In this document: positions 32,483 to 47,068 of the stretch, in pieces
Numbering within the stretch: position 1 is the first letter of the stretch
Layout of the letters: each line of letters opens with the position of its first letter
Source: Gemmatimonadaceae bacterium
GTDB lineage: Bacteria > Gemmatimonadota > Gemmatimonadetes > Gemmatimonadales > Gemmatimonadaceae
NCBI GenBank assembly: GCA_020852815.1
Contig: JADZAN010000002.1
Location: forward strand, 248,001 to 312,000
DNA: 64,000 nucleotides
Reading direction: 5' to 3'
The notes under the pieces: generated by a model
Databases searched by the model: none
What the model was told of the DNA's origin: nothing
What the model saw: the letters and a program-made list of their open reading frames with translations, nothing else
Made by a program: the position numbers and the translations under genes

Positions 32483-32518
32483 TACGCGCCCGTTCCGGTT
32501 GGCGTCGATCCCGTCGCC

Positions 32519-32552
32519 CTCGTCTTCCCGTCTTCTCGTCTTCCCGTCTTCT
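32519..32552. repeat. Octamer tandem array (GACGAGAA / GACGGGAA type)
   Basis: On the minus strand this tract reads as four tandem copies of an 8-bp unit alternating GACGGGAA and GACGAGAA. It fills the gap between the stop of the dihydrolipoyl dehydrogenase gene (32560) and the start of the phosphatase (32482), giving a purine-rich tract upstream of the GTG start. It is the same unit as at 39333, 47032, 47203 and 51974. Confidence 0.8.
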
Positions 32553-34800: not shown

Positions 34801-36159
34801 CTACTCCACCACCATCAGCGCCGGATCCTCCATCAACTCCTTCACCCGCACGAGGAACAGCACCGCCTGCTGCCCGTCGATGATGCGATGGTCGTAGGAG
34901 AGGGCGACGTACATCATGGGGCGAATCGCGATCGCGCCGTTCACCACCATCGCGCGCTCCTGCACCTTGTGCAGCCCCAGGATCCCCACCTGCGGGAAGT
35001 TGATGATGGGGGTCGAGATGAGCGAACCGAAGACGCCACCGTTGGTGATGGTGAATGTCCCGCCCGTGAGGTCATCCATCGTGAGCTTTCCATCGCGCGC
35101 CTTCTTGGCCACGGCGACGATAGCGCGCGCGATGTCGAGGATCGACATGCGGTCGGCATCCTTCAGGTTCGGGACGACGAGCCCGGCATCGGCCGCCACC
35201 GCGATCCCCATGTTCACGTAGTGGTGATACTGGATGTGATCGCCATCCACCTTGGCGTTCACCACCGGGTGCTGCTTGAGCGCCATGCACACCGCCTTCA
35301 CGAAGAAGGGCATGAACGAGAGGCGGACGCCGTGCTCTTTCTCGATCTTGTCCTTGATCCTGGCGCGCAACGCCTCGACGGTGGTCATGTCGATCTCGTT
35401 GAACGTCGTGAGCGGCGCTGTCGACTGGTGCGACTCCAGCAAGTGCTCGGCCATGCGCTTGCGGCGCGTGGTCATCTTTTCGCGCGATTCGCGCGGGGCG
35501 CCGAGCACGGGGGGGCGCATCGGCGCGGCGACGGGCTGCGGTGCGTCGGCGGGAGCGGGTGCGGCAGCAGGGGCCGCTACCGGCGCCGTTGCCGGCGCCG
35601 TGTTTGCCGCCGCGCGCTGCGTTGCGGCTGACGAGGGCGCCGGTGCCGCGCTCGACGCAGCCAGGTGCTCGATCACGTCCGGCTTGCTCACGACGCCGCC
35701 CCGTCCGGTGCCACTCACCTGTGACAGGTCGACGCCCTCCTCTGCGGCCACACGGCGCGCCGCGGGCGAGGCCCGCTCCGACGTCGACTCAGCCGCCGGC
35801 GCGGCAGGAACCGGCGCCGCCGACGTAGCCGGCGCGGCAACCGGCGCGGCAACCGGCGCGGCCGCCGGCGCACTCACCGGCGCGGTCGCTGCCGTGCTTG
35901 CCGCAGCGGCCGCACCCGCACCGCCCCCCTCGTCGATCTCGCACAGGATCTCGTCCACCTTCACCACATCCCCTTCCCGCTTGAGCACTCGCGTCACGAC
36001 CCCGGCTTTCAGCGCCGGAACCTCGACCGTTACCTTGTCCGTCTCCAGTTCGACCAGGGTCTCGCCCGCGTTCACCCGGTCTCCCTCCTTCTTGAGCCAC
36101 CGTGAAATGGTGGCTTCGACGATGGATTCACCGAGGACCGGGACTTTGATCGAGAGCAT
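34801..36159 (-). CDS. sucB: Dihydrolipoyllysine succinyltransferase (2-oxoglutarate dehydrogenase E2)
   Basis: 452 residues from ATG at 36159, chosen because the lipoyl domain starts there (MLSIKVPVLGESIVEATIS). The lipoyl lysine is in ELETDKVTVEV. An Ala/Pro linker follows, then the peripheral-subunit-binding domain (ASPAARRVAAEEGVDLSQVSG), a second Ala/Pro linker and the catalytic domain with SYDHRIIDGQQAV, whose His and Asp are the active site. The SIVEATIS type of lipoyl domain and the catalytic sequence favour the succinyl (2-oxoglutarate) complex over pyruvate. Two of the linkers consist of short repeated APV/APA units. It is transcribed away from the oxidoreductase at 36391. Confidence 0.93.
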   Translation of the reverse strand: MLSIKVPVLGESIVEATISRWLKKEGDRVNAGETLVELETDKVTVEVPALKAGVVTRVLKREGDVVKVDEILCEIDEGGGAGAAAAASTAATAPVSAPAAAPVAAPVAAPATSAAPVPAAPAAESTSERASPAARRVAAEEGVDLSQVSGTGRGGVVSKPDVIEHLAASSAAPAPSSAATQRAAANTAPATAPVAAPAAAPAPADAPQPVAAPMRPPVLGAPRESREKMTTRRKRMAEHLLESHQSTAPLTTFNEIDMTTVEALRARIKDKIEKEHGVRLSFMPFFVKAVCMALKQHPVVNAKVDGDHIQYHHYVNMGIAVAADAGLVVPNLKDADRMSILDIARAIVAVAKKARDGKLTMDDLTGGTFTITNGGVFGSLISTPIINFPQVGILGLHKVQERAMVVNGAIAIRPMMYVALSYDHRIIDGQQAVLFLVRVKELMEDPALMVVE

Positions 36160-36390
36160 GGACAGAGTTTCCGGACTGGGACGAGGTGCGACGACGATGG
36201 CGGGTTGGTTCGGGCTGCGGACGCCGTGCTCCGCGCTCGGGCAATACCCTGCCGACGATGTTCCGGAATCTATATCCACAGCCATTCCAGCGACCACAGG
36301 TTGCGCCCAGATGCGTTCGGCTCTCCCGCGTGATCCCGTGCGCGCGACACCCATCATCCATCACTCCTCACGCCTAGCCACGAGCAGCCA

Positions 36391-37425
36391 GTGCGCGCCC
36401 TGACCATCTCCGCCCACGGGGGGCTCGAGCAGCTCCAGTACCGGGACGACCTGCCGGCGCCAACCATCGCCTCACCCACCGACGTCCTGGTGCGAATGAA
36501 GGCCGCGGCGCTCAATCGGCTGGACATGTTCATGCTGGGCGGGCTCCCCGGGATCACGATCACCCCGCCCTGGGTGGTCGGGTCCGACGGCGCAGGCGTG
36601 GTCGAGGCGGTGGGGGCGGGGGTCACCTCGGTCCGCGTCGGCGATCACGTCGTCCTCAATCCCGGGCGCAGTTGCCGCCACTGCGAGTACTGCACCTCGG
36701 GCGACTCGCCGCTCTGCCTTCACTACGGGATCGCGGGGGAACACTTCCCCGGGACGTTGTGCGAACAGCTCGTCGTCCCCGAGTGGTACGTGGCCCCTAT
36801 CCCGCCCCGGATCCCGTTCGCGGAGGCGGCCGCCTTTCCGCTGGCAACGCTCACCGCGTGGCGCATGCTGGTGAGCCGTGCTCGCCTCGAACCCGGCGAG
36901 CATGTGCTCATCTGGGGCATCGGTGGCGGCGTGGCGCTGCAGGCGCTGCAGATAGCCAAGTCGATCGGCGCCATCACCTGGGTCACGTCGGGGAGCGACG
37001 AGAAGCTGGCGCGTGCCAAGGCGTTAGGCGCGGACGAGGTGATCAACCATGCCCGGGGCGACGTGGGCAAGGAGATCCGCGCACGCACGGGCAAGCGCGG
37101 CGTCGACGTGGTGGTCGACAGCGTGGGGGAGAAGACGTGGGCGCAGTCGCTGGGCGCGTTAGGCAAGCGTGGGCGCCTCGTGACCTGCGGCGGCACCTCG
37201 GGGCCCAGGCTGGAGATGGACGTGCGCCGCCTCTTCTGGAACCAGTGGACGATCATGGGTTCGACCATGGGGAACGAGGAGGAGTTCGCCGCGGCGACGG
37301 CATGGTTCGCCGAGGGGAAGATCCGCGCCGTCGTCGACTCGGTGCACGCGCTGGCCGATGGCCGGGCGGCGTACGAGCGCCTGGGGTCGGGGGCGCAGTT
37401 CGGGAAGGTCGTGCTCGAGATCTGA
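36391..37425 (+). CDS. Medium-chain zinc alcohol dehydrogenase / quinone oxidoreductase family
   Basis: 344 residues from GTG at 36391. The GroES-like domain (VLVRMKAAALNRLDMFM) has Asn-Arg-Leu-Asp in place of the catalytic zinc CGTD, as in quinone-oxidoreductase types, while the structural zinc lobe is kept (RSCRHCEYCTSGDSPLC). The nucleotide fold reads HVLIWGIGGGVALQALQIAK. NADPH preference is suggested by TSGSDEKLARAKALGADEVI. Substrate unknown. It is divergent from sucB; a REP-hairpin cluster follows 23 bp after its stop. Confidence 0.88.
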   Translation: MRALTISAHGGLEQLQYRDDLPAPTIASPTDVLVRMKAAALNRLDMFMLGGLPGITITPPWVVGSDGAGVVEAVGAGVTSVRVGDHVVLNPGRSCRHCEYCTSGDSPLCLHYGIAGEHFPGTLCEQLVVPEWYVAPIPPRIPFAEAAAFPLATLTAWRMLVSRARLEPGEHVLIWGIGGGVALQALQIAKSIGAITWVTSGSDEKLARAKALGADEVINHARGDVGKEIRARTGKRGVDVVVDSVGEKTWAQSLGALGKRGRLVTCGGTSGPRLEMDVRRLFWNQWTIMGSTMGNEEEFAAATAWFAEGKIRAVVDSVHALADGRAAYERLGSGAQFGKVVLEI

Positions 37426-37447
37426 TGCGCGTTGCTTGCTTCGAGAA

Positions 37448-37566
37448 GACGAGAAGCATGCCCCAGCGAAGGCTGGGGACGAGAAGCCTGCCCAGCGAAA
37501 GCTGGGGACGAGAAGCATGCCCCAGCGAAGGCTGGGGACGAGAAGCCTGCCCCGGCGAAAGCTGGG
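37448..37566. repeat. REP-like hairpin units, four tandem copies
   Basis: Four tandem units of 30, 29, 30 and 30 bp each contain GACGAGAAGC followed by (A/C)TGCCCC and a palindrome. Copies 1 and 3 have CCCCAGC-GAAG-GCTGGGG (7-bp stem); copies 2 and 4 have a GAAA loop and slightly altered stems. The GACGAGAA link is the same octamer that forms separate tandem arrays elsewhere in the window. The cluster lies between the stop of one gene and the start of the zinc-ribbon gene. It resembles bacterial REP/BIME elements; no associated transposase gene is in the window. Confidence 0.85.
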
Positions 37567-37588
37567 GACGAGAAGGGACGGGCGAACG

Positions 37589-37813
37589 GTGACTGAGGCA
37601 GCGAAGTTTTCGCTCGAGGAGGAAAAGGCGCTGCGGGCTGCGGTTGCGGCTGGCGGGACGGCGACGTGCCCGCGCTGTGCCGTGACGATGACGCAGCGCT
37701 CCATCGGCGGCGGGTCGTTCGGGCTGGGCTACGCCCGCAAGCGGGAGTGGTTCATCTGCCCGTCGTGCCACCGCTCGGTGATCTTCGACGTCAAGCGCGG
37801 GACGCGGAACTAG
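37589..37813 (+). CDS. Small zinc-ribbon protein
   Basis: 74 residues from GTG at 37589, which begins just after the repeat cluster; the frame continues upstream through the repeats, but that part is repeat-derived. Two cysteine pairs are visible, CPRC near residue 25 and CPSC near residue 58, separated by a basic glycine-rich segment (SIGGGSFGLGYARKREWF). This is a zinc-ribbon knuckle arrangement for nucleic-acid or protein binding. The GNAT gene begins 9 bp after its stop, so they are probably co-transcribed. Confidence 0.7.
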   Translation: MTEAAKFSLEEEKALRAAVAAGGTATCPRCAVTMTQRSIGGGSFGLGYARKREWFICPSCHRSVIFDVKRGTRN

Positions 37814-37821
37814 CGACCTCC

Positions 37822-38280
37822 ATGAGCGTTCCCTATCGCGTGCGTCGTGCGGTCGCGGACGACGTCGAGACGATCGTTGCCTTCACGGCCGACGAGGCGC
37901 GCGAATCGGAAGGGATCGCACCCGATCGCTCGACGATCGCGCGCGGCGTCGCCGCGGCTTTCGCCGAACCAGCGCGTGCCCTGTACTGGGTCGCCGAGTC
38001 GCTCGACGGGGCGGTCGTCGCGCACAGCTCGATCGTCACCGAATGGAGCGACTTTCACGGGGCAGACTACTGGTGGGTGCAGAGCCTCTACATCGAGCCG
38101 GCGCATCGCGGGACCGGATTGGTCGGGCTTCTGCTCGACACGCTGGCCGACGCCGCGCGCGCCGCAGGGACGCGCGACCTGCGCCTGTACGCGCACGAAG
38201 GGAATGCCCGCGCCCTGCAGGCCTATGCGCGCAACGGCTTCCTGCGCGCGCCGTATGCCATCATGACCCGCGAACTCTGA
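37822..38280 (+). CDS. GNAT-family N-acetyltransferase
   Basis: 152 residues from ATG at 37822. The GNAT fold is complete: VRRAVADDVETIVAF, WVQSLYIEPAHRGTGLVGLLLDTL (acetyl-CoA loop RGTGLVG, a variant of Q/RxxGxG/A) and LRLYAHEGNARALQAYARNGF near the end. The acceptor (amine, amino acid or protein) cannot be told. It follows the zinc-ribbon gene closely. Confidence 0.85.
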   Translation: MSVPYRVRRAVADDVETIVAFTADEARESEGIAPDRSTIARGVAAAFAEPARALYWVAESLDGAVVAHSSIVTEWSDFHGADYWWVQSLYIEPAHRGTGLVGLLLDTLADAARAAGTRDLRLYAHEGNARALQAYARNGFLRAPYAIMTREL

Positions 38281-38426
38281 CCCATGGCCGCTCCACGCAA
38301 GGCGCTCGCGCCGCCGCCGCTTGTCGACATGAGACGCGTGACGAGGCGCCAGCTCATCGCCGCGATCCGCACGCGTGACCTCGACGCCGGCGGTGTCGTT
38401 CCCCCGTCCCGCTCACCCCACCACGC

Positions 38427-40268
38427 ATGGCCGAGTACCCCTCGCTGACCGTGACGCGCGACTTCACAGTCGACGCCCCCACGCTCTATCGCGCCTTCAC
38501 CACCGGTTGGAGCGACTGGTTCGGCGAGGCCGACACGGCGCGCATACATGCCATCGTTGGGGCCCCGTTCTTCTTCGAGGTCGCGCAACGCGCCGAGGAC
38601 GGCACCGTGCGACAGCGCCATCCGCACTACGGCCGTTTCCTCCAACTCATCCCGGATGCACTGGTCTCGCTCACCTGGGTCACCGGGAGCGCCGGTACTG
38701 GAGGTGCCGAGACGGTCGTGACGATCCGGCTCCACCCTGGGGACGTGTCGACCGCGCCGGGAGCGCCATCGACGACCGTCACGCTCACGCACGATCGATT
38801 CGCCAGCGCCGAGTCGCGCGACCGGCACGCGCAGGCCTGGCCAATGGTCCTCGACCATCTCGCGCGGACGCTGGAGTCGGCAGGTGCAAACTCTCGCGCG
38901 CCGTCACCGACGCTCCCGTCCAATCGTTCCATTCCCGAGGCAACGCTTATCCCCGTGCGCAGCTACCCCGACGTCGACGGGGCGGTGACCTGGATGCGAG
39001 ATGCCCTGGGCTGTCGCGAGCGCTTGCGCATTCCCGGCCACCGTGTGCAGCTGACGATCGGGAACGGGGCCGTGGTGGCCGTCGCCTGGGACGCGTCGTC
39101 GAACCCGTCCGCGGGACGGCCGCCGGCCACCCTGATGGTGCGCGTCGCCGATGTCGACGCCACCTACGCGCGCGCCATCGCACTCGGCGCCGCCGGGGTG
39201 ACGCCCCCCGCCACACACCCGTATGGCGAGCGCCAGGCAGTGCTCAAGGACCCCTTCGGCCATTCGTGGACGCTGTCGCAGACTGTGGCGGACGTCGATC
39301 CGGCGGAGTGGGGCGGGCACCTCGTGATGGAAGAGGACGAGAGGACGAGAGGACGAGAGGCCTGCCCCAGCGAAGGCTGGGGACGAGAAGCCTGCCCCAG
39401 CGAAGGCTGGGGACGAGTGAGTGACGAGCGGATGGAGTCGGCGGAACGGGAGGGCGCGGGCGAATGGCTGCGGTGGGATCGCTCGGTGGACGTCGAGGGC
39501 GTGGCGTTGCGCGTGCACGGGATCGTGGCGCCCGGGGGGGCCGGGAACCTGAGGGCACCGGTGCTGGTCTTCCTGCACGACTCGTTAGGGTGCGTGGAGA
39601 CATGGCGCGACTTTCCCGCCGAATTGGCGCGCCGCACCGGGCTCGACGCCATCGTCTATGACCGGCGCGGCTACGGCAAGTCGGCACCGTTCCCCAGCGA
39701 AGCGCGCACGCCGCACTACCTGGCGCAGGAAGGGACCGTCTTGTTGCGCCTGCTCGACGCGCTCGACGTTCAATCGGCCGTCCTCTTCGGGCACAGCGAC
39801 GGAGGGACGATCGCGCTGTACGCGGCGGCGCAGGCCCCTGGGCGCATCCGGGCGATCGTGAGCGAAGCAGCGCACGTCATCGTGGAGGAACTCTCGCTCG
39901 ACGGTATTCGCGCGGCGCGCGAGGCGCTGCGCACGACCGACCTCCGCGAGCGTCTGGTCCGCTACCATGGCGACAAGGTCGATGGTGTCACGTCGGCGTG
40001 GATCGACACCTGGCTCGATCCCGGCTTTCGCGACTGGAACATGCTCCGCGAGCTCCCGCAGGTCGTCGCGTCCCTACTCGCCGTGCAGGGCGAAGGCGAC
40101 GAGTACGGCACCCCAGCACAGGTCCGAGCAATTGTCGAGGGAGTCTCGGGGCCCGTTCGCGCGCTGATGATCCCAACCGTTGGCCATACGCCGCATCGCG
40201 ACGCGCGCGACGTCGTGCTCGACGCGTCGGCCCGGTGGATCAACGAGCACGTACCCGTGCCGTCGTAG
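38427..40268 (+). CDS. Three-domain fusion: SRPBCC + VOC + alpha/beta hydrolase, joined by a repeat-coded linker
   Basis: 613 residues. Residues 1-155: an AHSA1-type SRPBCC domain (LTVTRDFTVDAPTLYRAFT, PFFFEVAQ, PMVLDHLARTLE). About 170-300: a VOC/glyoxalase domain of the PhnB-like kind (IPVRSYPDVDGAVTWMRDALG, AVLKDPFGHSWTL). About 345-610: an alpha/beta hydrolase with PVLVFLHDSLG, DAIVYDRRGYGKS, nucleophile elbow GHSDGG and a C-terminal His in VGHTPHRDA. Between domains 2 and 3, residues about 303-330 are coded by the octamer array and two 30-bp REP units (39333-39411) in frame, giving a repeated REACPSEGWG. Possibly two or three ancestral genes joined by repeat insertion. A split start for the hydrolase is possible at ATG 39432. 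Confidence 0.8.
   Translation: MAEYPSLTVTRDFTVDAPTLYRAFTTGWSDWFGEADTARIHAIVGAPFFFEVAQRAEDGTVRQRHPHYGRFLQLIPDALVSLTWVTGSAGTGGAETVVTIRLHPGDVSTAPGAPSTTVTLTHDRFASAESRDRHAQAWPMVLDHLARTLESAGANSRAPSPTLPSNRSIPEATLIPVRSYPDVDGAVTWMRDALGCRERLRIPGHRVQLTIGNGAVVAVAWDASSNPSAGRPPATLMVRVADVDATYARAIALGAAGVTPPATHPYGERQAVLKDPFGHSWTLSQTVADVDPAEWGGHLVMEEDERTRGREACPSEGWGREACPSEGWGRVSDERMESAEREGAGEWLRWDRSVDVEGVALRVHGIVAPGGAGNLRAPVLVFLHDSLGCVETWRDFPAELARRTGLDAIVYDRRGYGKSAPFPSEARTPHYLAQEGTVLLRLLDALDVQSAVLFGHSDGGTIALYAAAQAPGRIRAIVSEAAHVIVEELSLDGIRAAREALRTTDLRERLVRYHGDKVDGVTSAWIDTWLDPGFRDWNMLRELPQVVASLLAVQGEGDEYGTPAQVRAIVEGVSGPVRALMIPTVGHTPHRDARDVVLDASARWINEHVPVPS
39333..39411. repeat. Octamer array plus two REP-like hairpin units inside a reading frame
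   Basis: Three and a half copies of GAGGACGA (39333-39360) run into two 30-bp units (39352-39381 and 39382-39411), each with the hairpin CCCCAGC-GAAG-GCTGGGG. They are nearly identical to copies 1 and 3 of the 37448 cluster. Because the unit is 30 bp, insertion keeps the reading frame, and the tract is translated as the linker of the fusion protein. Confidence 0.85.
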
Positions 40269-40333
40269 TTGCGGCGACGGGTGTCGCGGCGCATCTCTCA
40301 CCGAGCCGCACCATCTCGCGAGGGGAGGTTCTC

Positions 40334-40765
40334 ATGGCGACACAGGGCGACGTTCGTCGCATCGCGCTCAAGCTCCCGGGCGCCTCGGAAGGGGAGGGGC
40401 GCTTCGCGTTCTCCGTGATGGTGAAGGGAAAGGCCAAGGGCTTCGCGTGGGACTGGCTCGAGCGCGTCGATCCCAGGAAGGCGCGTGTCCCCAATCCGCG
40501 CGTCCTCGCCGTGCGCGTCGCCAACCTCGCGCAGAAGGAGACCCTGCTCGCCGCCGAGCCCGTGAAGTTCTTCACCGAACCGCACTACAACGGCTACCCC
40601 GCAATCCTCGTCAGGCTGGAGAAGGTCACAGCGGCCGACTTGCGTATCCTGCTGCAGGAGGCGTGGCGCTGCATGGCGCCGAAGGAACTGCTCGCGCAGG
40701 GGGAGTCGCCGGCGAGGACGCGTTCCCCCGCTGTCGCGACCAAGCGCGCCACGCGCCGCCGTTAG
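40334..40765 (+). CDS. MmcQ/YjbR-family protein
   Basis: 143 residues from ATG at 40334, backed by a strong AGGGGAGG five bases upstream. The sequence VRRIALKLPGASEGEGRFAFSVMVKGKAKGFAWDW, followed by KFFTEPHYNGYPAILVRL and LRILLQEAWRCMAPKEL, is the YjbR/MmcQ fold, a small CyaY-like protein often described as DNA-binding. The role is unknown. The C-terminal tail is basic (ATKRATRRR). A 20-bp tandem repeat follows the stop. Confidence 0.85.
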   Translation: MATQGDVRRIALKLPGASEGEGRFAFSVMVKGKAKGFAWDWLERVDPRKARVPNPRVLAVRVANLAQKETLLAAEPVKFFTEPHYNGYPAILVRLEKVTAADLRILLQEAWRCMAPKELLAQGESPARTRSPAVATKRATRRR

Positions 40766-40790
40766 TAGCGAGCGGCGGCGGGCACCTCGC

Positions 40791-40850
40791 GTCGCCTCGC
40801 GACGTCTCCCGTCGCCTCGCGACGTCTCCCGTCGCCTCGCGACGTCTCCC
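40791..40850. repeat. 20-bp tandem repeat, three perfect copies
   Basis: GTCGCCTCGCGACGTCTCCC is repeated three times without a mismatch (40791-40810, 40811-40830, 40831-40850) and begins a fourth copy with a partial match upstream. Each unit carries the palindrome TCGCGA and overlaps GACGTC. It lies in the 161-bp gap between the YjbR gene and the acyl-CoA synthetase gene, 76 bp before the latter's ATG. It may be a regulator binding array or simple slippage. Confidence 0.8.
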
Positions 40851-40926
40851 ATGTCGGGAGTTCCACGATGCCGATGTGCACGCCCCGCAGCGAGCTTCCC
40901 CGCGCACCCGACTCGTATCTTCCGAC

Positions 40927-43056
40927 ATGACCGCTCCGGACCGCGCGCGCAGCGCCAACCTCGCCCCGCTCCTCGCCCCACGCACCATCGCCGTCATCGG
41001 CGCCTCGCCGCGCGTGAGCAACATGGGGCACCAGATCCTCTCCAACCTGCTCGACTTCGGCTTCGCGGGCACCGTCTATCCGGTGAATCCCACGGCGCAC
41101 GCCATCCGAGCCGTGCGTGCCTACCCGACCATTGCCGATGTCCCCGAACCGGTCGACACCGCGATCGTCGTGGTCCCCAAGGAGCAGGCGTTGGCGGTGG
41201 CGGAGCAGTGTGGCGCCGCGGGGGTGAAGGGGCTGATCGTGATCACCGCCGGCTTTCGCGAGGTAGGGGGGAGCGGGGTGGCGCTCGAGCGCGATCTCAT
41301 GGCCACCGTGCGGCGCCACGGGATGCGGATGATCGGCCCCAACTGCATGGGGGTGGTCAACGCCGACCCCGCCGTGGCGATGAACGCGACCTTCGCCCCC
41401 ATCATGCCCCCGTTCGGGCACTCCGCCTTCGTCTCGCAGTCCGGCGCCCTGGGGATGAGCGTCCTCGACTACGCCCGCGAGTACGGCATCGGCATATCAC
41501 AGTTTGTGTCGATCGGCAACTCGCCCGATATCGGCAGCACCGACCTCCTGGAGCAGTGGGAGCACGACCCCGCCGTTCGCGTGATCCTGATGTACGTGGA
41601 GAACTTCGGCGATCCGCGTCGCTTCCTCGCCACGGCGTCGCGCATCACCAAGTCCAAGCCGATCATCGTCGTGAAGTCGGGGCGCTCCAACGCCGGCGCA
41701 CGCGCCGCGTCGTCGCACACCGGGGCGCTCGCCGCGAGCGACTCCGCCGTCGACGCCATGCTGACACAGGCCGGCGTCCTGCGCGCCAACTCGATCGAGG
41801 ACCTCTTCGACATGGCGATGGCCTTCGGTACCCGGCTGCGCCCACGCTCACGCCGCACCGCCGTATTGACCAACGCCGGCGGCCCGGGGATCCTCGCCGC
41901 CGATGCGCTCGAGCACCAGGGGCTCGAACTCGTCGACCTCAGCCCGGCCACCGTGGCGGCGCTGCGCCCGCTCTTTCCGCCGGAAGCATCGATCCGCAAT
42001 CCACTCGACATGATCGCGTCGGCGACCCCCGCCGGCTACAAGGCGGCGCTCACCGCATTTCTCGATGACCCGAACATCGACGCCGTCGTCCCGATCTTCG
42101 TCCCGCCGTTCGGCGTCAAGCAGGAAGATGTGGCCGAAGCCATCGTCAGCGCGCAGGCCACGCATCCCGAAAAGTCGATGTTCGCCGTCCTCATGGGACT
42201 CAAGGGCCTGCCGCAGGGTCGCGCCGAGTTGCACGCGGCGGGGATCCCGGCCTACATCTTCCCCGAGAGTGCAGCGCGCGCCCTCAACGCCCTCGATCGC
42301 CAGCGTGAATGGGAGGAACGTCCCGCCGCGCAGGCGCGGCTTCGGAGCGTGAATCGCGAGGCAGCGCGGTCGCTGGTCCAGCGCGCGCGCGAGGAGCGAC
42401 GCACGGCGCTCACGCAGGACGAGGCCATCGCCCTCCTCGACACGTACGGCATCCCGGTGGCACACGTTAGGCACGTCCCGCTCGACGGTGACCTCGGCGA
42501 CGCGGCGGCGAGCGTGGGCTATCCGCTCGTCATGAAACTCGACTCGCCCGACATCACCCACAAGACCGACGTCGGCGGCGTTCGCGTGGGAATTGGCGAT
42601 GTCGACGAGCTGCGCGCCGCGCACCAGGAAATGCTCGCGCGCGCGCGCGCCCTTGCACCTGACGCCCGCGTCGCGGGCGTGGTGCTGCAGCGGATGATTG
42701 GCGGTGGCCGCGAAACCATCCTGGGCATCACGCGCGACCCGCGCTTCGGGCCGCTCCTCATGTTTGGACTGGGCGGTGTCTTCGTCGAGGCGATGCAGGA
42801 CGTGGTCTTCCGCGTCGCCCCGGTCGACGATGCGCAGGCGCTGGACATGGTGCGCGGGATCCGCGCCGCGCGCGTGCTGCAAGGGATGCGTGGGGCGCCG
42901 CCGGCAGACGAAGCGGCCCTCGTCGAGGCGATTGTCCGCCTGGGTCAGCTCGCCGCCGACTTCCCCGAGATCGAGGAGTTGGACGTGAATCCCCTCCTCG
43001 CGCTGCCGCAGGGAGCGGTGGCGGTCGACGCGCGCGTGCAATTGCAGCGGCCGTAG
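40927..43056 (+). CDS. ADP-forming acetyl/acyl-CoA synthetase, fused alpha-beta subunits
   Basis: 709 residues from ATG at 40927. Order: CoA-binding domain (TIAVIGASPRVSNMGHQIL), succinyl-CoA-synthetase-like domains with the phosphorylated His in ASSHTGALAASD, then a C-terminal ATP-grasp domain (LVMKLDSPDITHKTDVGGVRVG, ETILGITRDPRFGPLLMFGLGG). It interconverts an acyl-CoA plus ADP and phosphate with the free acid plus ATP, allowing energy recovery from acetyl- or other acyl-CoA. The acyl group is unknown. One GTTAGG hexamer (42466) is read here as Val-Arg with a rare AGG codon. Confidence 0.92.
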   Translation: MTAPDRARSANLAPLLAPRTIAVIGASPRVSNMGHQILSNLLDFGFAGTVYPVNPTAHAIRAVRAYPTIADVPEPVDTAIVVVPKEQALAVAEQCGAAGVKGLIVITAGFREVGGSGVALERDLMATVRRHGMRMIGPNCMGVVNADPAVAMNATFAPIMPPFGHSAFVSQSGALGMSVLDYAREYGIGISQFVSIGNSPDIGSTDLLEQWEHDPAVRVILMYVENFGDPRRFLATASRITKSKPIIVVKSGRSNAGARAASSHTGALAASDSAVDAMLTQAGVLRANSIEDLFDMAMAFGTRLRPRSRRTAVLTNAGGPGILAADALEHQGLELVDLSPATVAALRPLFPPEASIRNPLDMIASATPAGYKAALTAFLDDPNIDAVVPIFVPPFGVKQEDVAEAIVSAQATHPEKSMFAVLMGLKGLPQGRAELHAAGIPAYIFPESAARALNALDRQREWEERPAAQARLRSVNREAARSLVQRAREERRTALTQDEAIALLDTYGIPVAHVRHVPLDGDLGDAAASVGYPLVMKLDSPDITHKTDVGGVRVGIGDVDELRAAHQEMLARARALAPDARVAGVVLQRMIGGGRETILGITRDPRFGPLLMFGLGGVFVEAMQDVVFRVAPVDDAQALDMVRGIRAARVLQGMRGAPPADEAALVEAIVRLGQLAADFPEIEELDVNPLLALPQGAVAVDARVQLQRP

Positions 43057-47028: not shown

Positions 47029-47031
47029 GGC

Positions 47032-47068
47032 GAGAAGACGAGAGGACGAGAAGACGAGAAGACGAGAG
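47032..47068. repeat. Octamer array next to the M19 start codon
   Basis: Tandem GAGAAGAC/GAGAGGAC units of 8 bp, about four and a half copies, start 4 bases upstream of the M19 ATG (47028). On the coding strand it reads as repeated CTCGTCTT, a pyrimidine tract at the ribosome-binding position, so no Shine-Dalgarno sequence is present. Confidence 0.8.

Follow-up and report, generated by a model that had tools for sequence, protein, structure and literature searches.

The CGTC- and GTAG-tagged intragenic REPs are high-copy short palindromes that lie mostly near the 3' ends of genes (Di Nocera et al. 2013, PMC3733652). Some of them lie wholly within open reading frames (ORFs) and are translated in frame, grouped copies encoding 20-82 residues, and those of the CGTC type have no dedicated transposase (PMC3733652). 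The palindromic elements of Rickettsia, about 100-150 bp long, are also translated in frame within genes (reviewed in PMC10969869). The GGGNATC heptamers of Xanthomonas and Nostoc mark gene edges, near start codons in antisense or near stop codons in sense (Rehm et al. 2015, PMC4692102); they lie nearest to their 5' neighbour regardless of its direction, are rare between divergent genes and have conserved locations (PMC4692102). Finally, the TAACTGA heptamers of Beggiatoaceae repeat in direct orientation a short way, a few nucleotides, ahead of start codons, where ribosome-binding sites are rare (MacGregor 2015, PMC4679880). Some of these repeats are found inside or at the ends of ORFs, and TAACTGA has stops in all three forward frames (PMC4679880).

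Like the CGTC and GTAG REPs and the Rickettsia elements, the repeats analysed here include short high-copy palindromes that are 3'-proximal and in some cases predicted to be translated in frame. In the window (the whole 64,000-nucleotide stretch analysed), an ORF of 613 aa starts with ATG and is open throughout. Pfam placed three domains on it, all past the cut-off: AHSA1/SRPBCC at residues 19-150 (41.7 bits), Glyoxalase/VOC at 181-282 (48.1 bits) and Abhydrolase_1 at 378-493 (59.2 bits). Between the VOC and hydrolase domains we found the two 30-bp units at 39352-39411 that a preliminary description had reported as encoding REACPSEGWG twice. The element is nonetheless larger than described, since an 8-bp array precedes the two palindromic units; the whole spans about 97 bp and contains no long homopolymer. 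The parts of the junction are as follows.

38427 to 40268, plus strand: SRPBCC (AHSA1)-VOC-repeat-alpha/beta hydrolase frame, 613 aa, scored as a single gene by codon usage (score 133)
38427 to 39326, plus strand: SRPBCC-VOC part, residues 1-300, judged from its relatives an old two-domain gene; close relatives mostly stop 1-9 codons past V300
39332 to 39360, plus strand: array of 8-bp repeat units, AGAGGACG/GAGAGGAC, 3.6 copies, left end of the element
39352 to 39381, plus strand: first 30-bp unit (repeat matches, hairpin), palindrome CCCCAGCGAAGGCTGGGG at 39365-39382, encoding residues 310-319
39382 to 39411, plus strand: second 30-bp unit (repeat matches, hairpin), palindrome CCCCAGCGAAGGCTGGGG at 39395-39412, encoding residues 320-329
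39417 to 39424, plus strand: GTGAGTGA, in which the in-frame GTG 39417 (V331) overlaps an out-of-frame TGA (39418-39420), with a further TGA (39422-39424) in the third frame
39417 to 40268, plus strand: alpha/beta hydrolase part, putative triad S457 (GHSDGG), D558 and H587; stand-alone homologue in G024
39432 to 39434, plus strand: ATG (M336), the other in-frame internal start of a possible separate hydrolase

Codon usage scores about +4 to +8 per 20 codons on both sides of the element and -4.2 within it. The catalytic triad proposed for the hydrolase part is plausible. A structure model of the 613-aa protein was discarded, its mean pLDDT of 46 being too poor for use.

The palindrome has a 7-bp stem, CCCCAGC/GCTGGGG, followed by CAGG on the reverse strand. 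It has six matches in the window against 0.11 expected, and 270 in the genome at up to two mismatches against two for a reversed-pattern control, an abundance beyond chance. Most palindromes are intergenic; in the sampled sequence, 12 of 148 octamer or palindrome elements fall within predicted genes. As RNA, the junction element would form two stable hairpins (z = -3.4), and it is unlike an intrinsic terminator because no T-run lies 3' of them. Rfam returned zero matches for positions 36000-42000 of the window, and a literature search with the palindrome sequence yielded nothing. The units share with REP-RAYT systems that they are short palindromes in high copy and mostly extragenic. Their earlier label 'REP-like' holds to that extent, but they have no matching RAYT and are joined to a genus-wide 8-bp gene-edge array. 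Indeed, the only Y1_Tnp in the genome (L067:3302-4300), of Y1/RAYT type, is flanked by unrelated GGGGTCAGAGTCA inverted repeats with no copy of the junction palindrome nearby, and a classic REP-RAYT system was rejected.

Further elements of both kinds occur in the window. The cluster at 37448, which had been taken for the same element in non-coding DNA, is just that, with four units in a non-coding gap.

37442 to 37576, plus strand: sister element with four palindromic units, non-coding, 17-18 bp past the stop of the gene at 36391-37425
47031 to 47067, plus strand: 8-bp array with no palindrome, located a few bp 5' of a minus-strand gene's start codon
47203 to 47236, minus strand: 8-bp array facing the one at 47031, directly 5' of the next plus-strand gene's start codon
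51974 to 52007, minus strand: 8-bp array without palindrome
32509 to 32552, minus strand: 8-bp array, TCCCGTCT variant

A separate 20-bp tandem repeat, CTCCCGTCGCCTCGCGACGT, is present in 3.2 copies at 40786-40850, about 20 bp past the stop of the gene at 40334-40765.

To place the arrays relative to genes, we used 2.38 Mb of the 5.38-Mb genome (G000) and genes called by a codon-usage script; this caller is home-made and its start choices are approximate, making the stop-side statistics firmer than the start-side ones. Of 86 intergenic GAGARGAC arrays, 70 point outward from a gene edge no more than 25 bp away, against 16.6 +- 3.6 under random placement. In 78 of the 86 cases the closest gene edge lies to the left (null 42.9 +- 4.6, with a maximum of 56 in 1000 simulations). 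Arrays following stops in sense (46) and arrays preceding starts in antisense (32) both contribute. Arrays occur in 3 of 215 divergent gaps versus 18 of 198 convergent ones. By a mechanical definition, approximately 4% of gene edges are capped (79 3' and 66 5' edges, each of 1941). TAG is the stop codon in 53 of the 79 3'-capped genes versus 557 of 1671, and a Shine-Dalgarno sequence precedes 7 of the 66 5'-capped genes versus 681 of 1660. With respect to the stop codon, 74 arrays start at or after it and seven begin within an ORF. Read toward the gene, the octamer arrays are CU-rich, and Rho loading or S1 binding could be candidate roles on that ground.

The 8-bp arrays are a feature of the genus: among 99 genomes searched they were present in all three congeners and in 0 of the 96 others. 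In G002 they obey the outward rule too (12 of 14 intergenic cases). Of 11 orthologous edges followed from G002, 10 also bear an array of octamer or heptamer type in G000, as judged by eye, against the roughly 4% of edges capped in G000 overall; array positions are thus conserved between the two species, and array sequence and length vary between orthologous edges. Both genomes are also enriched in arrays of another type, GACGGGR. The palindrome was found in this genome only, with none in 98 relatives; given arrays that are genus-wide, this lineage probably acquired the palindromes later, next to arrays it already had.

The relatives also bear on the two halves of the frame. A SRPBCC-VOC gene is found in the same-genus genomes G001 (71-72% identity) and G002 (66%), where the frame ends with ...WGGELVDG and ...WGGELVGEGNR, respectively. 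Its stop lies 1-9 codons past the equivalent of V300 in G001, G002, L238, L239 and G049; the L240 protein ends somewhat short of that point, and the one in G069 reads on through a different repeat before stopping. This C-terminal tail in G069 is of ENRHTGSRHT type, another short in-frame repeat, and the G002 protein has ADSAR repeats in its interdomain linker (L034 and L036:1455-1535). As judged from these relatives, SRPBCC and VOC form an old two-domain gene, so the repeats do not join these two domains, contrary to what had been proposed. Conservation stops with the residue encoded up to 39326, and the array begins at 39332; the repeat therefore starts where the gene ends in relatives.

The hydrolase, on the other hand, stands alone in G024, which belongs to another genus (57% identity), and begins there with MSD. 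In G024, as in the window, odhB lies close to the hydrolase gene; it was considered as synteny and dropped, as the arrangement differs. We found no close hydrolase homologue in the congeners G001 and G002, so the ancestral arrangement at this site is not directly seen. None of 149 relatives has a VOC-hydrolase fusion, and a scan of 84,980 species, with a narrow alignment as query, returned nine relatives, none extending into the hydrolase. Neither set thus holds a fused protein lacking the repeat. The separate genes that the preliminary description had suggested seeking in relatives were recovered, as SRPBCC-VOC without hydrolase and as the lone hydrolase of G024, and they show the VOC-hydrolase junction to be the derived state.

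We propose, with a probability of about two in three, that a stop codon was lost at an element-capped gene end and that the frame ran on, in phase, into the hydrolase. The SRPBCC-VOC gene would have carried at its 3' edge a composite element, made of the genus-specific 8-bp array and the two lineage-specific palindromes. Elements of this type usually begin at or just past the stop codon, and in place and orientation the junction element is an ordinary 3' cap, but in this genome the gene end has no stop. The element itself is open, and its present octamer count brings the reading into phase with a hydrolase gene of independent origin directly after it. The outcome is three domains in a single frame of 613 aa, with some 28 linker residues encoded by the repeat, and we infer that this fusion is made as a protein. 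The stop may have been lost by a separate substitution or indel, or by insertion. An out-of-frame TGA (39325-39327) overlaps the last conserved codon, so that a small indel fits equally well as an insertion. The earlier suggestion that the repeats removed a stop and fused separate genes is therefore borne out for the derived junction, whereas removal of the stop by insertion is unsupported, given that the elements usually lie outside an intact stop.

Alternatively, the three domains might act in one pathway, with the fusion adaptive and the repeat kept as a useful linker. The domains are apparently intact and the triad plausible, but they are fused in no relative, the same repeats recur in unrelated proteins, and SRPBCC-VOC in other Gemmatimonadota (L238-L240) adjoins mqnB- and mqnD-like genes, as identified by eye from sequence, rather than a hydrolase. 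We consider this reading very improbable.

A more serious alternative, to which we would give somewhat less than even odds, is that the hydrolase is made mainly from its own start (GTG 39417 or ATG 39432), the long frame being a by-product of a stop-free repeat that yields little or no functional fusion protein. The preliminary description had pointed out the lack of a stop in this frame; the frame is indeed open, but this is a weak point, as none of the six frames of the 30-mer, or of both octamer and both heptamer variants, contains a stop, and 38% of 30-mers shuffled at equal composition are likewise open in all six. With repeats open in every frame, the open frame is no evidence of selection. 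The element also has no codon bias. Moreover, VSD at GTG 39417 resembles the MSD start of the G024 hydrolase, and each of the other two frames has a TGA that overlaps this GTG or comes after it, a layout usual for translationally coupled genes. Against a separate start, neither GTG 39417 nor ATG 39432 is preceded by a good Shine-Dalgarno sequence, and ribosomes translating VOC meet no stop until 40266, so some fusion is expected provided that the sequence is right. Because the octamer unit is not a multiple of three, the fusion is one of three possible frame states: one or two units more or fewer would end the first frame at 325-337 aa, on TGA 39418-39420 or 39422-39424, so that the locus may ordinarily consist of two coupled genes.

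Repeats of these kinds are also found in frame within other conserved proteins. The isoleucyl-tRNA synthetase IleRS (L158:11649-13520 and L248, one true copy) has an in-frame octamer array whose encoded residues, REDEKTRGREDE, fall in a loop; the G001 protein carries a related insert at that place, EDEKTGRREDE, and G002 and G024 have unrelated short loops. Five further genes have array-encoded C-terminal tails, and a palindromic element lies in frame also at C19:265667. Open frames and conservation suggest that these repeats are translated within conserved proteins. In an ABC transporter ATPase (L087:9820-11502, C2:9820-11502), the octamer encodes REDERTRRREDE in the linker that connects the two ATP-binding halves. 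A 1279-aa frame (L132:3398-7237, C15:103398-107237) passes through an antisense element into a part that by eye is sodium/solute symporter-like, and may be a further frame joined by repeats, or an artefact arising because the element has no stops. A 722-aa DnaX with an N-terminal element was set aside as probably an artefact of start choice.

IleRS has a second array, of the 7-bp GACGGGR unit, that is in frame in G002 and out of frame in the G000 assembly. This may be either an error or real length variation; array lengths in the assembly may thus be wrong or variable, which calls for caution at the junction. If they are variable, octamer slippage could shift the phase, and a population would hold the 613-aa fusion alongside its two parts as separate, coupled proteins. 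The first frame that ends after a change of one or two units, the IleRS case and the variation between orthologous edges agree with such a frame switch; we nonetheless regard it as unlikely, as 3.6 units are few for high slippage rates, the IleRS case may stem from a misread G-run, and similar heptamer loci are unusually stable (Rehm et al., PMC4692102). That the array toggles between a fused enzyme and two coupled proteins, with comparable arrays doing likewise across the genus, IleRS included, seems to us slightly less likely again. If the lengths are wrong, the true junction array would be out of phase and there would be no fused frame. That the single-copy IleRS of this assembly is out of frame at a different array points this way, but the junction element is shorter than the usual read length, is free of long homopolymers and has clean codon signal on either side, and we think such an error improbable.

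The run-on reading offers a concrete way in which non-coding repeats at gene edges could enter protein and link neighbouring genes. The event itself, a repeat within a protein, is of a known kind, and its effect is real in the sequence. It also carries a warning for annotation, as a long frame created by stop-free edge repeats may not correspond to one protein. What is new is that the repeat family belongs to another phylum, that an octamer lacking G-triplets follows the outward rule, and that a translated repeat lies where two once-separate genes meet.

With the GGGNATC heptamers, GAGARGAC shares the outward gene-edge placement, which extends this rule from G-rich heptamers to an octamer without G-triplets. 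GGGNATC has four G-tracts and a proposed G-quadruplex (PMC4692102), whereas GAGARGAC has no GGG, comes with added palindromes and should not form one; its obedience to the rule argues against quadruplex formation as the reason for the placement. The G-rich GACGGGR could form such structures. Like the TAACTGA repeats of Beggiatoaceae, the arrays include start-proximal direct repeats, where Shine-Dalgarno sequences are rare, and some in or at the ends of ORFs; unlike TAACTGA, they carry no stop in any frame, so run-through is possible.

CGTC REPs have a stem of 8-9 bp, A-T in positions one and two and a CCA tail; the junction palindrome has a 7-bp stem and neither of the other two features. Its reverse strand does read CTCGTC-CCCAGC..., the last C of the CGTC tag being shared with the stem. 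Another palindrome family, of CCCAGCGAAAGCTGGGATCC type, is near CGTC REPs and occurs in spaced groups, twice inside a 630-aa gene (L095:13432-15324 and others). The likeness to the Rickettsia elements would lie in the in-frame copies at the junction and at C19:265667 and in the octamer part in IleRS, with units of 30 bp rather than about 100-150 bp and a host that its relatives place in Gemmatimonadota. In two respects the junction differs from both CGTC/GTAG REPs and Rickettsia elements: its palindromes stand head-to-tail and are joined to an 8-bp array, and its translated repeat would lie at the join of two once-separate genes, where theirs lies inside one gene.
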